The position numbers and the translations under genes were made by a program. The notes below the pieces were generated by a model. The model had not been told where the DNA came from, did no database searches, and worked only from the letters and a program-made list of their open reading frames with translations. This document shows, in pieces, positions 3,495 to 11,597 of a DNA stretch of 35,480 nucleotides. Numbering within the stretch: the first letter of the stretch is position 1; each line of letters begins with the position of its first letter. Origin of the DNA: Chloroflexota bacterium (lineage in GTDB: Bacteria > Chloroflexota > Dehalococcoidia > Lucifugimonadales > UBA3495). Location of the stretch: assembly GCA_022562475.1 (NCBI GenBank), contig JADFPD010000011.1:1-35480 (forward strand), read 5' to 3'.

Positions 3495-4403
3495 TTACCG
3501 GAGGGGGGAAGGGAGGGGCAACATACTGCCCAGCCAGGTCTTAGCCGTTATGCCGATCTTTTCGGCCTTGCTCAGGGACACCCTGGACTCCAAGACATCG
3601 TAGTCCGACGCCTCGATCCGGTCTAATACCTTGGAGTAGAGCGCTCCTAATACGGCGGGGCAGGCGCGGGACCGCCGCGAGAGATAGGGCAACAGCTTGA
3701 AGCCGCGGTCGAAATATTCTCGGGCCCTTTGCGATTGGAACCTCATGAGGTCCTGAAACGCCTCGTTTCGGACCCCCATTCTCAGGTCCTCTTCCGAATA
3801 CCCGAATCGGGCCATCTCGTCCTGAGGTAGATACACCCGTCCCATATCGAAGTCTTCCCGTACGTCCCGGATGATGTTGGTCAACTGCATGGCCAATCCC
3901 AGGTCAACGGCGTATTCTTTGGCATCGTCGTCCTCGTAGCCGAAGATCTGAAGACAGATCAAGCCCACCACCGAGGCCACCCGGTAGCAGTAAATTTTAA
4001 GTTCCTCGAAGTTCTGGAACCGGTCCTTGACCAGGTCGCTTTCCACGCCCAGGATGACCTCTTTGAAGTAGTCCTTGGGGATATCGTAGTTGCGTGCGAC
4101 ATCCGCCAACGCCACATAGACCGGGCCGGTGGCGCCCCCTGAATAGGAGCTATCGAGGTCAGTCTGAAGCTCGGCCAAAGCCTTTAATTTGGCGTCGTGA
4201 GAGGTTTCCTCATCAACCGAATCATCGCAGTGGCGGCAGAAGGCATAGGCTGCGTAGATGGCCCGGCGCTTGGCGGCGGGGAGGGTCAAAAAAGCATAGT
4301 AAAAGTTCTTGGCTTCCCGGCGGGTGATGGTCCGGCAGGCCTCGTACGCCGATTCCAAGTCCAATGCCAAATTCGGCTCAGGTTCAGTGGTGGGAGGCTG
4401 CAT
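3495..4403 (-). CDS. squalene/phytoene synthase family protein
   Basis: This 302-residue all-alpha prenyltransferase joins two C15 (or C20) prenyl diphosphates head to head. The first aspartate-rich motif is DDSVDE (about residues 60-65), inside FCRHCDDSVDE. The second is DVREDFDMGRVYLP, just after LAMQLTNIIR. The family covers squalene synthase, HpnC/HpnD and phytoene synthase. Because a squalene-hopene cyclase lies 0.7 kb away in the same orientation, squalene (or presqualene diphosphate) production is the natural reading. No partner gene of the HpnC-HpnD-HpnE type and no carotenoid gene occurs in the window, so whether one enzyme does the whole reaction is open. It has its own candidate promoter (TATAAT at 4464-4469 on minus). 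Confidence 0.9.
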   Translation of the reverse strand: MQPPTTEPEPNLALDLESAYEACRTITRREAKNFYYAFLTLPAAKRRAIYAAYAFCRHCDDSVDEETSHDAKLKALAELQTDLDSSYSGGATGPVYVALADVARNYDIPKDYFKEVILGVESDLVKDRFQNFEELKIYCYRVASVVGLICLQIFGYEDDDAKEYAVDLGLAMQLTNIIRDVREDFDMGRVYLPQDEMARFGYSEEDLRMGVRNEAFQDLMRFQSQRAREYFDRGFKLLPYLSRRSRACPAVLGALYSKVLDRIEASDYDVLESRVSLSKAEKIGITAKTWLGSMLPLPSPLR

Positions 4404-4573: not shown

Positions 4574-5017
4574 TTATTCGCCGACTACCTGGACCATGAC
4601 TTCACGATTGCGAGCATGGTCCAACTCGATGAAGAAGACGCTCTGGTAGGTCCCAAATTGCATCTCGCCGTTGATCACCGGCACGGTCTCGCTCGTGCCC
4701 AGTAGCAGGTGCTGTAGATGGGCGTGGCCGTTGGGCGATTCGTCGTCGTTCATATTTACGGTGCGAATCTCAAAGTTGTTGTGTTGGTAGCCGTTCTCCC
4801 GGGGAGACATCCTTTCTAGAAATTCCTTCATGTCTTCCAGCAACAACGGCTCATTCTCGTTGATCTTGACCGCCGCGGTAGTGTGCTTGGAATACACGAC
4901 GGCGAACCCGTTGGTGATCTGCGATTCAGCGACACACTGGGCCACCCAATCTGTGATGTCGATGAACTCCGGCGCACACTTGGTCTTTAACCGCTTGCAA
5001 AAGGACCTGGTTTTCAT
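4574..5017 (-). CDS. YjbQ/UPF0047 family protein
   Basis: The 147-residue protein is a full-length YjbQ (UPF0047) family member. It shows SKHTTAAVKINENE (about residues 44-57), GHAHLQHLLLGTSETVPV and the C-terminal ELDHARNREVMVQV, which supply the conserved His/Glu cluster at the trimer interface. Some family members have weak thiamine-phosphate synthase activity, but the physiological role is not settled. The gene is codirectional with the squalene-hopene cyclase (79 bp upstream) and is followed by a stem-loop, so it may be the last gene of the main hopanoid transcript. A purine-rich GGGGG precedes the ATG by eight bases. No link to hopanoids is known for the family. Confidence 0.9.
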   Translation of the reverse strand: MKTRSFCKRLKTKCAPEFIDITDWVAQCVAESQITNGFAVVYSKHTTAAVKINENEPLLLEDMKEFLERMSPRENGYQHNNFEIRTVNMNDDESPNGHAHLQHLLLGTSETVPVINGEMQFGTYQSVFFIELDHARNREVMVQVVGE

Positions 5018-5096: not shown

Positions 5097-7097
5097 CTAC
5101 CGGCCGGAAATGGCCTGGAAATATCTTCCCAGAGCCAGCAACGGCCAGTAGTTGCGGTACAGGTGGTAATTGATCATAAATCCGGCCGGCATATCCAAGC
5201 CTTGGTAATTGGTTTCTCCATGATCCGGCAACGCCTTCAGGCGCTCGCCTACCCCGTAGCCGGGAAATCCGGTGCCGGTGAAGTACGGCTCATCCCACGC
5301 GCCGTCTTCCTGTTGAGTTTCGGCCAGGTATGCCAAGCCCCGCTGGGTGGCCTCGCATCCATGCTCCCCGGCCGCCACCAGTCCAAGCAAGGCCCAGGCG
5401 GTCTGAGACGCGGTGCTGGGCCCAACGCCGCGGAGGGTTGGGTCCACGTATGAACCGCAGCTCTCGCCCCACCCACCGTCTTTGTTCTGGTGGGCAACCA
5501 GCCAATCAACCGCCCGGCGGACGTACGGCTGAGACATGTCTTCGCCGATGGCTTCCATCGCCGGCAGGACCGCTCCGGCGCCGTAGACGTAATTCACGCC
5601 CCAACGCCCGAACCAGGAACCGTCTTCTTCCTGCTCGCTGACGATGTAGCCGTATCCACGATTGACTGCCGGGTGTTCCTTGGTGTAACCCAAGCGTCCG
5701 TACATCTCCAGCAGATGGGCCGTCACATCGACGCTGGGCGGGTCCAGGGTCTCGCCAAAATCCGAGAACGGTATCTTGGTCAGGTATTTCTTGTTGTTGT
5801 CCTTGTCAAAGGCGGCCCAGCCGCCGTTCTTGGACTGCATACCGGCCATCCACTCCACACCCCTATGGATAGAATCGGCCCGGCGTGGTTCCTCGGCATC
5901 CGGCAGCCGGACTTGGTCGAGGGCCATCACGACGATGGACGCGTCATCGATGTCCGGGTAGATCAGGTTATCGAACTCGAATGACCATCCGCCGGGTCGG
6001 AGGTCTTTGGCCCGGACCTGCCAGTCGCCGCCGGCGAATATCTGCTTGTCCATCAGCCACCGGGCGGACGACTGGACCATGGGGTCGTCAGGGGCCACGC
6101 CCGATTCCAGCAGGGCTAATTGGGCGATGCCGGTGTCCCATACAGGGGAGATACAAGCCTGAAGGCTGCACTTGTCATCGTCTTCCAAGGCGAACCCTTC
6201 GAAGCCCTGGAATCCCCTTTTAACCGCCTCATGCTCCGGCCCATAGCCCATGATATGGAGGGCGATCAGAGAGTATACCCAGGGGGGCTGGATCCCGGCC
6301 CAGGAGCCATCGGCTTCCTGGTGCTCCAAGACCCATTGAATGGTCTTGCGCTCGGCACGGCCTCTGAGAGGGTGCACCGGCAACTTTTGGTAGAGTCCGA
6401 CCAGTTTGTCGGTCCAGTAGAGGGCCTTGGCCCAGCCGAATCCTCCCTTGGGTTTGGGCAAGGTGTAGTCGGTGCCTTCCCGTCCGCCGGGATAGAGTTC
6501 GTCGATGCTGGCCGACTCGGGCACCGGACAGTATGGCTGGTGGGTCAGGATGATCAGCATGGGGACCACGGTGGCGCGGGCCCAACTGGCGAATTCATAG
6601 ATGTTAAAGGGCGCCCAAGACGGTAGAAAAATCATCTCGGGGGGCATATTAGGCGTGCCTTTCCAGTCCCATTGGCCGAACAGCGCCAACCAGATCTTGG
6701 TGAACACCCGGACCTTGGGCATCCCGCCCTTGGACAAGATGAACTCACGGGCCCTTTGTAGAGGCTCTTCGTCCGGCGAATGACCCGCCAGTTTGAGGGC
6801 GAAGTAACACTCGACCGATGTGCTGACGTCGCCGGGAGCATCGTAGTACTGGGCCCATGAACCGTCGGTCCGCTGTTTGCTCAAGATGTAATTGCAGACC
6901 TTGCTCCATCGATCTTGGTCATGGCGGCCGGTGAAATGGCACAGCATCAGATACTCGGCTTCCATCGTGGGGTTGGATTCCAGTTCACCCCACCAGTAAC
7001 CTTCGGGATACTGGGTCCGGCGGAAATAGTCTTGGGACCGCCGCACCGCCTGCCCTGCCGCCTGATCGACCGGTGTATGTTTCTGTTGCGCCACCAT
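5097..7097 (-). CDS. shc: squalene-hopene cyclase
   Basis: This class II triterpene cyclase converts squalene to hopene/hopanol in a membrane-bound alpha/alpha-barrel. Using the ATG at 7097 the protein is 666 residues, normal for the family; the longer frame from 7163 would run into hpnA. QW repeats are plentiful (QRTDGSW, QEADGSW, QEEDGSWFGRWG, QNKDGGWGESCG, QQEDGAWDEP), and the C-terminus FTGTGFPGYG...MINYHLYRNYWPLLALGRY is typical. The protonating acid motif reads D382-I-D-D-A-S instead of the usual DxDDTA; the aspartates are kept but Thr and Ala are changed. The gene begins 2 bp after the hpnA stop, so translation is probably coupled. Its product feeds HpnH. Confidence 0.97.
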   Translation of the reverse strand: MVAQQKHTPVDQAAGQAVRRSQDYFRRTQYPEGYWWGELESNPTMEAEYLMLCHFTGRHDQDRWSKVCNYILSKQRTDGSWAQYYDAPGDVSTSVECYFALKLAGHSPDEEPLQRAREFILSKGGMPKVRVFTKIWLALFGQWDWKGTPNMPPEMIFLPSWAPFNIYEFASWARATVVPMLIILTHQPYCPVPESASIDELYPGGREGTDYTLPKPKGGFGWAKALYWTDKLVGLYQKLPVHPLRGRAERKTIQWVLEHQEADGSWAGIQPPWVYSLIALHIMGYGPEHEAVKRGFQGFEGFALEDDDKCSLQACISPVWDTGIAQLALLESGVAPDDPMVQSSARWLMDKQIFAGGDWQVRAKDLRPGGWSFEFDNLIYPDIDDASIVVMALDQVRLPDAEEPRRADSIHRGVEWMAGMQSKNGGWAAFDKDNNKKYLTKIPFSDFGETLDPPSVDVTAHLLEMYGRLGYTKEHPAVNRGYGYIVSEQEEDGSWFGRWGVNYVYGAGAVLPAMEAIGEDMSQPYVRRAVDWLVAHQNKDGGWGESCGSYVDPTLRGVGPSTASQTAWALLGLVAAGEHGCEATQRGLAYLAETQQEDGAWDEPYFTGTGFPGYGVGERLKALPDHGETNYQGLDMPAGFMINYHLYRNYWPLLALGRYFQAISGR

Positions 7098-7099
7098 CT

Positions 7100-8119
7100 C
7101 TAATTTGCTTTGCTCCGGATGATCTGGCGGTCTCCAGCCACATATCCGTGGGCGGCGAACCAATCGGCCGCCTTTTTCAATGCGGCTTCGATGGGCCGCT
7201 GGGGTTGCCCCAACTCTCTGACCGCCTTTTCGCAGTTGACGTAGGCCGGTGTCTTGGACGCCAACACCCCTTCGACTGGAATGGCCGGTTCCCGGCGAAG
7301 GAGAGTTCCCTCGACGAACCGGTCGGCATAGCCAACGCCCACCACCAGCCAGTAGGGCGCCCTTATACGGGGCGCCGGCAGGCCGGTCAGGTTGCTCAAT
7401 ATGTCGAATATTTCCTTCAAACTCACGTTCCGGTTGCCCAAGATATACCGTTCTCCGGACTTGCCCTTCTCCAAGGCCAAGATGTGGCCTTCAACCACAT
7501 CGGCCACGTCCACTAGATTCATTCCCGTCTTCAAATAGGCCGGCACCCGCCGGCGTAGAAAGTCCAATACCATCTTCCCCGTTGGCGTGGGTTTAACGTC
7601 CCACGGCCCTACCGGAGCGGTGGGATTCACCACCACCAGGGGCATACCCGCCGCGGCCAGCGCCAGTGCCTCCTGCTCCGCCTGGTATTTGGACCTCTTG
7701 TAATGGCCGTGGAGCGATTTGGGGTTGAGGTAGGTGTCCTCATCTCCGAGCCCCTGTTTGGGGAGCCCGACGGTCCCGACCGTGCTGGTGTAGACCGTAC
7801 GGGAGACCCCCGCCTGCCGCGCGGCTTCTAACACGTTCAATGTGCCCGCCACGTTGGTCCGCGTAACCGCTGTGGGGTCCCTGGACCAGAAAGTGTAGGC
7901 GGCGGCCACGTGGAATACTGCCTCACAGCCCTGGACGGCCCGGTCCACCGACTGCCGGTCCAGGATGTCGCCTTCCATGGGGACGATTCCGGTGTCTTCT
8001 ATTGTTAATCGGTTGCTTCCCGGGCGCACCAGCGCCCGGACATCGTCACCTCGCCGCCACAGCTCGCGGGCCAGGTTTCCGCCGATGAACCCGGTGGCGC
8101 CGGTGACAAGTACCTTCAT
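7100..8119 (-). CDS. hpnA: HpnA-like hopanoid-associated sugar epimerase
   Basis: The 339-residue extended SDR has TGATGFIGGNLAREL at residues 6-20, YTSTVGTVGLP and the catalytic YKRSK motif. It then has PTAPVGPWDVKPTPTGKM and a NLVDVADVVEGHILAL stretch, a pattern characteristic of HpnA. HpnA is found in hopanoid operons and proposed to act on the sugar-derived side chain, but its reaction has not been firmly established. The gene sits between hpnG (8 bp) and the cyclase (2 bp), so cotranscription is very likely. The ATG is preceded by a weak AGG. The context supports a hopanoid role over a general NDP-sugar role. Confidence 0.9.
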   Translation of the reverse strand: MKVLVTGATGFIGGNLARELWRRGDDVRALVRPGSNRLTIEDTGIVPMEGDILDRQSVDRAVQGCEAVFHVAAAYTFWSRDPTAVTRTNVAGTLNVLEAARQAGVSRTVYTSTVGTVGLPKQGLGDEDTYLNPKSLHGHYKRSKYQAEQEALALAAAGMPLVVVNPTAPVGPWDVKPTPTGKMVLDFLRRRVPAYLKTGMNLVDVADVVEGHILALEKGKSGERYILGNRNVSLKEIFDILSNLTGLPAPRIRAPYWLVVGVGYADRFVEGTLLRREPAIPVEGVLASKTPAYVNCEKAVRELGQPQRPIEAALKKAADWFAAHGYVAGDRQIIRSKAN

Positions 8120-8127
8120 TTTTTAAC

Positions 8128-8856
8128 CTAGCCGGCGCCGATAATTCCAGTCGCCTTCAGGTATGAAACCCCAAAGTTTGTCAGGACCGCCTGGCACAGT
8201 TGCAACTGGCTCTTCAGGCGCAGCACGGTGGGGATCCGCCAGGGCATGAGCAGAACATTGGTCAACACTTTGTATCGCGATTTGGCCAGCCCCGGCAGAT
8301 AGCCGGGGAGGCGTTGGCTTGCCGTGTCCAAAACCACCCGGACCGACAAGAAAGGGACGCCCGCATTCTGGGCCGCCTCTGCCGCCCGGTAGTCTTCCAT
8401 GTTGACGCTAGACGTCTGATACCGGGCCCGAAGCTCCTCACGTTCTTGGGGCCCCGCAACCAGATGGTCAACGGTCAACGACCCGCCATTAAAGATGGGG
8501 ACTGAAAGATCGAGGGCCGCCTGTTGCGCGGATTGAAGCATCACGGCGTCGGGCTTGATCGCCTGTCCCGCGCCTTTGACTGCTCCGTCTTGTAGGGCGT
8601 AACGGTCCGCCAGCAGCAGGTCTCCGGTCTCCAGTTCGGGGTCCACGCCTCCGGCGACTCCAATGACCAACACCCCATCCACATTGGAACGCCGGTTTTC
8701 CAGCAATGCCGCCATCGAAGCGCCCGCCCGTTCGGGCCCAACACCCAATACCTGAAACTCCACCTGGGGGTGGACCCCGGTGGCGTCTTCGATGTCGAGC
8801 AATTCACGGCGAAGGCCGTTTAATTCTTGCTCCATGCTGGCAGCCACGATCAACAA
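8128..8856 (-). CDS. hpnG: HpnG-like hopanoid phosphorylase/nucleosidase
   Basis: This 242-residue protein belongs to the purine/MTA-SAH nucleosidase-phosphorylase fold: GVAGGVDPELETGDLLLADR in the middle and SVNMEDYRAAEAAQNAGVPFLSVRVV near the C-terminus match the family's base- and ribose-binding regions. In hopanoid producers HpnG removes adenine from adenosylhopane on the way to ribosylhopane, and the hpnH gene next to it makes that the best call. The start is TTG: two TTG codons (8856, 8853) follow AAGGA, and the next ATG is seven codons later and would cut into the first beta strand. The gene lies 18 bp after hpnH and 8 bp before hpnA. Confidence 0.88.
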   Translation of the reverse strand: MLIVAASMEQELNGLRRELLDIEDATGVHPQVEFQVLGVGPERAGASMAALLENRRSNVDGVLVIGVAGGVDPELETGDLLLADRYALQDGAVKGAGQAIKPDAVMLQSAQQAALDLSVPIFNGGSLTVDHLVAGPQEREELRARYQTSSVNMEDYRAAEAAQNAGVPFLSVRVVLDTASQRLPGYLPGLAKSRYKVLTNVLLMPWRIPTVLRLKSQLQLCQAVLTNFGVSYLKATGIIGAG

Positions 8857-8874: not shown

Positions 8875-9939
8875 CTAGGCAGCCGTTATTCCGCCCTTGT
8901 GGGCGGCGCCGGATTTGATCAGCGTGATCCAGTCCTTGGGCGTTGTCACAGCCGCGAAGATGGTGGCGGACTCGAAGCCGCAGTGCATCATGCAGTTGGC
9001 GCAACGCGGGTCTTTGCCCACGCCATATCTCTCCCAGATATCCTCGTCAAATAGCTCCGTGACGTGTTCGACATGCTCATCGGCCAGAGGGTAGCAGGGC
9101 TTCCTCCATCCCATCACGGTGTAGGTCGGGTTGGACCAAGCCGTGCACTGGTACTCCCGGTCCCCCTTCAGGAAATTCAAATAGAGGGGGTTGTTGTAAA
9201 AACGGGCGCCCTCGGAGTTTTCCGGCGACAGTAGGTCTTTGAATATCTCGTGGGACTCCTCGCGTGTCAAGAACATGTCTTGGTCGGGGGCGTCTTTAAA
9301 ATCGAAGCCTGGAGAGATCATGGAACCCTCGATTCCCATATCCGCCACCATGCGGAACATCTCGGAAAGGTCACCGACATCGCTGGTTCGGAAGACCGTG
9401 GAGTTGGTGCAGACGCGGTAGCCGCGGTCCAAGGCCGATTGGATGGCGTCGACAGCCTTCTTAAAGACTCCTTTCCGGTCCACCGACTCATCGTGCTTGT
9501 CTTCCATTCCGTCCAGATGCACCACCCAGCACAGGTACTTGGACGGGGGCACCTTGTTCATCACCCGGTCCAGCAACAGGCCGTTGGTGCAGCAATACAC
9601 GAAGTATTTTTCTTCGATCAACTGGTTGATGATCTGGTCGATCCGGGGGTGAATGGTAGGTTCTCCGCCGGCGATCGATACTATGGGCGCGCCCGACTCA
9701 CGAACGGCGGCCAGGGCTTCCTCCACCGGCATCATCTTGTCCAGAACCGGCTTGTATTCCCGAATACGTCCGCAACCGATGCAGGCTAAGTTGCACATCT
9801 CCAGAGGCTCAAGCATGGTCACCAACGGGAATTTCTTCCTTCCCTTGAGTTTATTCTTAAGGATGTAGCCCGCCAGTCTCGTGGATAGCTCCAGCGGCCG
9901 TTTGGCTCGTTTGGGTTGGCCTTTTTCTACCGTGGTCAT
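8875..9939 (-). CDS. hpnH: HpnH, adenosyl-hopene transferase (radical SAM)
   Basis: The 354-residue radical SAM enzyme has its cluster motif CNLACIGC (Cys49, Cys53, Cys56), then the SAM-binding IAGGEPTIHP, and YFVYCCTNGLLL and WVVHLDG strands. The C-terminal CYPLADEHVEHVTELF...CANCMMHCGFE matches the SPASM-like cysteine region of HpnH. HpnH adds the 5'-deoxyadenosyl group of SAM to hopene, making adenosylhopane, the first step to C35 hopanoids. The length is normal. The gene is 50 bp after the prenyl synthase gene and 18 bp before hpnG. Finding it here means the organism probably makes extended, not only C30, hopanoids. Confidence 0.95.
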   Translation of the reverse strand: MTTVEKGQPKRAKRPLELSTRLAGYILKNKLKGRKKFPLVTMLEPLEMCNLACIGCGRIREYKPVLDKMMPVEEALAAVRESGAPIVSIAGGEPTIHPRIDQIINQLIEEKYFVYCCTNGLLLDRVMNKVPPSKYLCWVVHLDGMEDKHDESVDRKGVFKKAVDAIQSALDRGYRVCTNSTVFRTSDVGDLSEMFRMVADMGIEGSMISPGFDFKDAPDQDMFLTREESHEIFKDLLSPENSEGARFYNNPLYLNFLKGDREYQCTAWSNPTYTVMGWRKPCYPLADEHVEHVTELFDEDIWERYGVGKDPRCANCMMHCGFESATIFAAVTTPKDWITLIKSGAAHKGGITAA

Positions 9940-9989: not shown

Positions 9990-11075
9990 TTAGTATTCTC
10001 TTCGGGCGAGAAAGTCAACCAGTTCTTCAGCCTCGGTTTGCGCCCATTGGGGCAGCGAAACCGGCTTCAAAGCCTCCAAAGCCCGGGCTGCCGCGGCTTC
10101 CGTAAGGCGTTGCGAATGCTCCTGGGACCCGACTTCGTCCAGCACGGCCAATACCCGCTGCACGTCGTCTTCTTTCAGCTCCTCCTGGCCATAGATGCGT
10201 AGCAGGTCTTCCATGGCCCTTCCGCTGGCCTGCTCCAGAGCGAACACCACCGGGTATGATTTCTTCCGCCGGCGTATATCGCTGTCGGTGGCCTTGCCCA
10301 AGGTGGCCTGGTCGCCCCAGATCCCCAGGTAATCATCCCTGATCTGGAATACCCGGCCAAGATGGTCGCCAAATTCGGCGAAAGCCCTCACCGCCGCCGC
10401 GTCTTCCGTGGCGAGGAGTGCCCCTATCTCAAGGGCGCAGCGTATCAAAGCGCCCGTTTTACAGGCGATCATATATAAGTATTCATCGGACTTGACGTCG
10501 GTCCGGGATTCGAATTCTAGGTCTAGGCATTGACCTTGAATCATTTCCAAGTAGCTCTCGGTCAAGATTTCGGAGACCTGGAGGACCATCGATGGGGTGG
10601 CGTCTTGGCCGGCGACCTCCAGCAGTGACAGGTCGCCGGTGCATTGCATCGCGTTGCCCGACCAAAGCGCCTTTGGGATCCCCCAAAGATGCCACACCGT
10701 TGGATGGTGCCTCCGCTCCACGTCCTGGTCTTGGATGTCGTCGTGGATCAGCGAGAAATTGTGGATCAATTCCACCGCCGCGGCCGCGGGCAGCGCCTTG
10801 GAGTAATCGTCGGCCAAGGCGTTGCAGGCGAAGAGACACAGCGTTGGGCGGAGCGCTTTGCCCTGGGTTATTGAGGTGTCCATCGGACCGCCAAGTTCAT
10901 CGACCCAGCCCAGGTGATAGCGGAGTAATCGGTGGGCCTCGAAGTTCTCGGCGCCGGGCACGGCGGCATAGAGCCCTTGCTCTACAGAGCTTTGGTATCT
11001 GGAGAACATGCCGGGAAGTTTTGTTCCCAGGTCCGAACTCCTATGTGATTGCTGTGCGCCGTCGTCTTTGACCAT
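9990..11075 (-). CDS. trans-polyprenyl diphosphate synthase (FPP/GGPP type)
   Basis: The 361-residue protein has the first aspartate-rich motif LIHDDIQDQD (about residues 110-119) and GKALRPTLCL, which fit an isoprenyl diphosphate synthase making FPP or GGPP. The second motif reads FQIRDDYLGIWGD: the usual DDxxD has Gly in place of the last Asp, with another Asp four residues later. This form is seen in some actinobacterial and Chloroflexi-type synthases. Chain length cannot be fixed by eye. It is the first gene of the hopanoid run and would supply C15 units to the squalene synthase. AGGAG sits only one base before the ATG, which is unusually close, so a slightly downstream start is possible. 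Confidence 0.9.
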   Translation of the reverse strand: MVKDDGAQQSHRSSDLGTKLPGMFSRYQSSVEQGLYAAVPGAENFEAHRLLRYHLGWVDELGGPMDTSITQGKALRPTLCLFACNALADDYSKALPAAAAVELIHNFSLIHDDIQDQDVERRHHPTVWHLWGIPKALWSGNAMQCTGDLSLLEVAGQDATPSMVLQVSEILTESYLEMIQGQCLDLEFESRTDVKSDEYLYMIACKTGALIRCALEIGALLATEDAAAVRAFAEFGDHLGRVFQIRDDYLGIWGDQATLGKATDSDIRRRKKSYPVVFALEQASGRAMEDLLRIYGQEELKEDDVQRVLAVLDEVGSQEHSQRLTEAAAARALEALKPVSLPQWAQTEAEELVDFLARREY

Positions 11076-11187
11076 ACTCCTATTCTCTATCGAGAAAAGG
11101 TGGGCCGCATATGGGCGGCCGGCTACTTAGGCTTACGCCAAGATCGGAGTGCCTCAAGATACCTCGGCATTCGATGGATGACGATGG

Positions 11188-11212
11188 CTGAAATGCTAGC
11201 AAAGCGTTTCAG
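11188..11212. promoter_or_regulatory. dyad operator candidate over the hopanoid promoter
   Basis: CTGAAATGC (11188-11196) and GCGTTTCAG (11204-11212) form an inverted repeat with 8 of 9 pairs matching and a 7-bp spacer. It covers the -10 box and most of the spacer of the promoter at 11193-11222, where a bound dimer would block polymerase. The cognate regulator is unknown; no regulator gene is adjacent. Confidence 0.45.
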
Positions 11213-11222
11213 ACCATGTCAA
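11193..11222 (-). promoter_or_regulatory. candidate sigma70 promoter of the hopanoid operon
   Basis: On the minus strand TTGACA (11222-11217) is followed after 18 bp by TAGCAT (11198-11193), with TG one base before the -10 (extended -10). Transcription would begin near 11186, giving a leader of about 110 nt before the polyprenyl synthase ATG. Confidence 0.6.
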
Positions 11223-11545: not shown

Positions 11546-11574
11546 TTGACACTTCTCCCACATTAGTTTATATT
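11546..11574 (+). promoter_or_regulatory. strong sigma70 promoter of the DUF1800 unit
   Basis: TTGACA (11546-11551), exactly 17 bp, then TATATT (11569-11574): 6/6 and 5/6 matches to consensus. Transcription should start near 11581, leaving an untranslated leader of about 140 nt before the ATG at 11721. Confidence 0.75.
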
Positions 11575-11581
11575 TCTTCCT

Positions 11582-11597
11582 TGTAATGAATGTTACA
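11582..11597. promoter_or_regulatory. perfect TGTAA-N6-TTACA palindrome at the start site
   Basis: TGTAA (11582-11586) and TTACA (11593-11597) flank six bases, right at the predicted +1 of the DUF1800 promoter. The 5-6-5 layout is that of CRP/FNR-family sites (TGTGA-N6-TCACA). A repressor site here would block initiation. Chance occurrence is possible because the arms are short. Confidence 0.35.

Follow-up and report, generated by a model that had tools for sequence, protein, structure and literature searches.

A putative membrane-lipid repressor site conserved at the hopanoid operon promoter of SAR202 Chloroflexota

Introduction

Hopanoids are major molecular fossils, and SAR202 is an abundant, mostly uncultured group of the deep ocean. 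Transcriptional control of hopanoid genes is known from Alphaproteobacteria, where genes such as hpnP depend on EcfG; this is stress control by a sigma factor, whereas the putative SAR202 system described here would likewise act on transcription but through a repressor at a sigma-70-type promoter.

The closest described repressor systems are the FapR and FabT regulons of Firmicutes, which control fatty-acid and phospholipid genes and in which a palindromic operator likewise overlaps promoters of the fabF, plsY and fakB type. We take their operator sequences to be unlike CATCG-N5-CGATG, the core of the site reported below, and neither regulon is known to us to include a hopanoid operon. Another parallel is found in the same genomes, because the autoregulated lexA promoter is of the same type (TTGACA...CTTTGCTAG) and carries a palindromic operator just past its -10; this operator, GAAC-N4-GTTY, is unrelated in sequence to the putative hopanoid operator.

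We found no operator or dedicated repressor described for a hopanoid operon in the open-access literature searched, and no discussion of regulators or promoters in the SAR202 genome paper (PMC5395668).

Results

The window, that is, the whole stretch of DNA analysed, comprises 35,480 nucleotides of contig JADFPD010000011.1 from a Chloroflexota bacterium that we assign to SAR202, class Dehalococcoidia, and contains the following genes.

9990-11075, minus strand: polyprenyl (GGPP/FPP-type) diphosphate synthase, first gene of the operon (PF00348; NCBIfam prenyl synthase models below cut-off)
8875-9939, minus strand: HpnH, adenosyl-hopene transferase (TIGR03470, above cut-off)
8128-8856, minus strand: HpnG-like phosphorylase (best match TIGR03468, below cut-off; PF01048)
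7100-8119, minus strand: HpnA, hopanoid-associated epimerase (TIGR03466, above cut-off)
5097-7163, minus strand: squalene-hopene cyclase, SHC (TIGR01507, above cut-off)
4574-5017, minus strand: YjbQ (TIGR00149, above cut-off), 3' of the cyclase in the gene order of the window and its relatives
3495-4403, minus strand: HpnD, presqualene diphosphate synthase (TIGR03465, above cut-off)

The last two genes lie on the same strand as the synthase-HpnH-HpnG-HpnA-SHC run and follow it. Upstream of the run, an earlier note had described a promoter TTGACA-18-TAGCAT with an extended -10, which is in the sequence as described and proved to be strongly conserved.

11217-11222, minus strand: -35 hexamer TTGACA of the hopanoid operon promoter, a consensus match, invariant in 12/12 congeners
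11193-11205, minus strand: extended -10, GCTTTGC-TAGCAT, with invariant upstream bases (-10 hexamer at 11193-11198), invariant in 12/12 congeners

Running from 11222 to 11193 on the minus strand, this promoter matches 10 of the 12 consensus bases and has the attributes of a sigma-70-type extended -10 promoter (hexamers TTGACA and TANNNT with 16-18 bp between them, and TG ahead of the -10). It stands well clear of chance, with 51 occurrences of TTGACA-17/18-TANNAT in the genome compared with one of the reversed pattern. Each of the 12 genomes available for the genus has TTGACA-18-TAGCAT before the synthase gene, with GCTTTGCTAGCAT invariant, and TTGACA...TTTGCTAG[G/C]AT is retained in most of the family's genera; judged by this conservation, we regard the promoter as real. 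We rejected CTTTGCTAG as a specific regulatory motif, since it also occurs before lexA and, in two relatives, before threonine-synthase-like genes, and it is therefore read as a strong extended -10.

At lexA of the window's genome (L062 3162-3230; G000 contig C163), TTGACA...CTTTGCTAG is followed by AGAACATAAGTTTTTATGTT, an arrangement conserved in relatives; we take AGAACATAAGTTTTTATGTT to resemble the Gram-positive SOS box GAAC-N4-GTTY. That box, present at lexA in the same genomes, was not found at the hopanoid promoter. The window also contains a divergent DUF1800/DUF1501 promoter, TTGACA-17-TATATT (11546-11574), followed by the dyad TGTAATGAATGTTACA (11582-11597; consensus TGTAAC-N4-GTTACA), which is kept in 11 of the 12 congeners and in G023 and may be a second, unrelated operator.

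On the hopanoid promoter itself, the earlier note had placed a dyad through which the whole operon would be repressed.

11188-11212, no strand assigned: dyad CTGAAATGC-TAGCAAA-GCGTTTCAG, 8/9 pairs; unconserved and judged incidental

The dyad, CTGAAATGC-N7-GCGTTTCAG, is indeed there, with 8 of 9 pairs over the spacer and the -10, as expected of an operator on the promoter; the end coordinate given for it, 11222, is that of the -35. Repeats of its kind are common in the window, and taken alone it is not above chance: counting the whole window with loops of 3-20, we obtained 152 inverted repeats with 8/9 pairs or better, and 91 ± 15 in dinucleotide shuffles. Mean pairing in 11 congeners is 5.6/9. 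The outer arms neither co-vary nor persist, as on average 3.64 of the outer seven pairs are formed in these congeners versus 3.58 with arms re-paired between genomes. Where the window has the upstream arm CTGAAACGC (coding strand), its congeners show CTAAACCGC, CCAAAATGC, CTAAATCGC or CTCGAATGC, among other sequences. The pairing that is left stems from promoter bases. Alignment of the relatives thus went against the dyad, whose arms are unconserved while the promoter is kept; it is under no selection, a chance feature of a real conserved promoter. Conservation rules it out as the operator, a reading to which we give hardly any credence. The broader proposal, that an operator on this promoter represses the whole operon, finds support in a different palindrome, about 10 bp downstream, which is conserved across the order.

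11159-11179, minus strand: putative operator ATCCATCGAATGCCGAGGTAT, with half-sites CATCG (11172-11176) and CGAGG (11162-11166); consensus ATnCATCG-N5-CGATGTAT
11182-11186, minus strand: additional CATCG half-site, lying 10 bp upstream of the operator's first half-site in the congener alignment and kept in several congeners only

This palindrome at 11159-11179, which overlaps the promoter or start site, is conserved with the promoter across lineages, and the reported dyad is not. In the window ATCCATCGAATGCCGAGGTAT is one base off the consensus and its core, CATCG-AATGC-CGAGG, starts 16 bases past the -10 with one half-site altered (CGAGG), so that the putative control may be weaker here than in relatives. 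Eight congeners have a perfect CATCG-N5-CGATG, and in other genera and families the same arms are found 2 to 11 bp past the -10. The extra half-site would roughly coincide with the transcription start, which we expect 7-11 nt past the -10.

The core matched CATCG-N5-CGATG in at least 9 of 10 bases near the -10 in 17 of the 31 genera with a recognisable promoter, or in 14 of 28 when the three genera found through the pattern search are left out, with an average of 0.04 in shuffles. Its offset from the -10 varies by lineage (2, 3, 4, 6, 11 or 16 bp), while the arm bases and their 5-N5-5 arrangement are constant, and in G056, from one family, the palindrome is the promoter spacer itself, between the -35 and the -10. 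The combined promoter-plus-dyad pattern had 22 matches in 250 genomes of the order and none with the reversed control. A scan of 84,980 species returned 26 matches, of which 19 belong to SAR202 relatives and lie 44-141 bp ahead of this polyprenyl synthase gene; the remaining seven are scattered and within the chance range (estimated at about four), one of them being L280, from another Chloroflexota genome.

Several lineages keep the operon without the site, namely three of the 12 congeners (G004, G001 and G007) and genera g2 and g7, and the putative control is therefore not universal. Hopanoid promoters of genus g2 (L028, L030, L178-L189) have TTGACA-17-TANATT followed by a CGTTGGAA-like sequence in place of CATCG-N5-CGATG, and some g2 genomes show a CCAACGTTGG palindrome after the promoter; the operator may have been replaced in this genus. 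Two g7 genomes share a variant palindrome, ATACATCGCCCTGCGATATAT and GTACATCGCTCTGCAATGTAT, in the same position between two thioredoxin-like genes (L162 4180-4200 in G060 and L163 827-847 in G062), whereas the hopanoid operon of g7 lacks it.

In most genomes the palindrome would sit at or just past the transcription start, where CATCG and CGATG could pair, as would suit a 5'-terminal hairpin that protects the mRNA or regulates translation. We consider such an RNA role improbable. The arm bases are fixed and the loop is variable; the recurrent CGAGG (in the window genome, G038 and G042) and the CTAGG of G036 break pairs and are uncompensated; identical bases recur before unrelated lipid genes; and in G056 the palindrome, lying between the -35 and the -10, would stay untranscribed, a position that favours a DNA operator over an RNA hairpin. 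No Rfam family, and hence no known cis-regulatory RNA, matched in the window at gathering thresholds.

The palindrome also lies near other lipid genes. At L280, in the other Chloroflexota genome, a tandem copy follows TTGACA...TAGGAT before a DegV/FakB gene. The longer palindrome, a 14-base pattern for which about three chance matches are expected (an estimate from database size), was found in five places among 393 genomes of the class: before plsY (G569), degV (G525 and G444, the latter being the locus of L280) and fabF (G419), and within a gene (G132). Two of these five sites show a perfect match across 16 bases. Four share the promoter register and a lipid function: at plsY, fabF and both degV/fakB genes, the palindrome begins 1-2 bp past a -10-like hexamer. 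One palindrome thus lies at several lipid-gene promoters, as expected of a Dehalococcoidia membrane-lipid regulon, in a small sample of four promoters.

Within SAR202 genomes the palindrome is close to unique. A wide SAR202 regulon was rejected: when up to 2 mismatches were allowed, the sites in 50 genomes of the family are scattered (before rpsP-like and nrdR-like genes, intragenic positions) and look mostly chance-like. Strong operator copies precede two genes of one other SAR202 genus, encoding a hotdog thioesterase (L119 6716-6736, G023) and an MFS transporter (L120 6963-6983, G033), which are possible, unproven extra targets.

Discussion

The comparisons suggest that the hopanoid operon is transcribed from the sigma-70-type extended -10 promoter at 11222-11193 of the minus strand, and that the palindrome at 11159-11179, just past the -10 and probably on the transcription start or immediately after it, serves as a DNA operator. 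A dimeric repressor would bind both half-sites, whose spacing of 10 bp puts them on the same face of the helix, and would block RNA polymerase at the promoter of the polyprenyl synthase-HpnH-HpnG-HpnA-SHC run. We infer protein binding, and repression as its effect, from the dyad geometry, the bases conserved before different genes, and the positions in the spacer or past the -10. Among the neighbourhoods listed for the window and its relatives, no regulator gene recurs beside the operon.

An activator or a nucleoid protein might bind the palindrome instead. This is unlikely, because a location within the spacer or 1-16 bp past the -10 suits a steric block, common activators binding at or upstream of the -35, and because the near-uniqueness of the palindrome in each genome speaks against a nucleoid protein.

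We favour the repressor. Since fatty-acid and phospholipid genes of other Dehalococcoidia have this operator in contact with their -10, the repressor would probably be one of membrane-lipid homeostasis. As a whole, we think it likely that a putative repressor-operator pair, with the site ATnCATCG-N5-CGATGTAT on a sigma-70-type promoter, controls the hopanoid operon. More tentatively, and with slightly less than even confidence, a single undescribed Dehalococcoidia membrane-lipid repressor with the operator ATACATCG-N5-CGATGTAT might act across the class. In several lineages it would control genes for fatty acids and phospholipids; in SAR202 its main target would be the hopanoid operon, so that the synthesis of these sterol-like lipids would be coupled to membrane lipid supply.

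The defined 21-bp site offers a bait for the regulator, and for the signal, that would switch hopanoid synthesis, and the link with plsY, fakB and fabF suggests what the nature of that signal might be.
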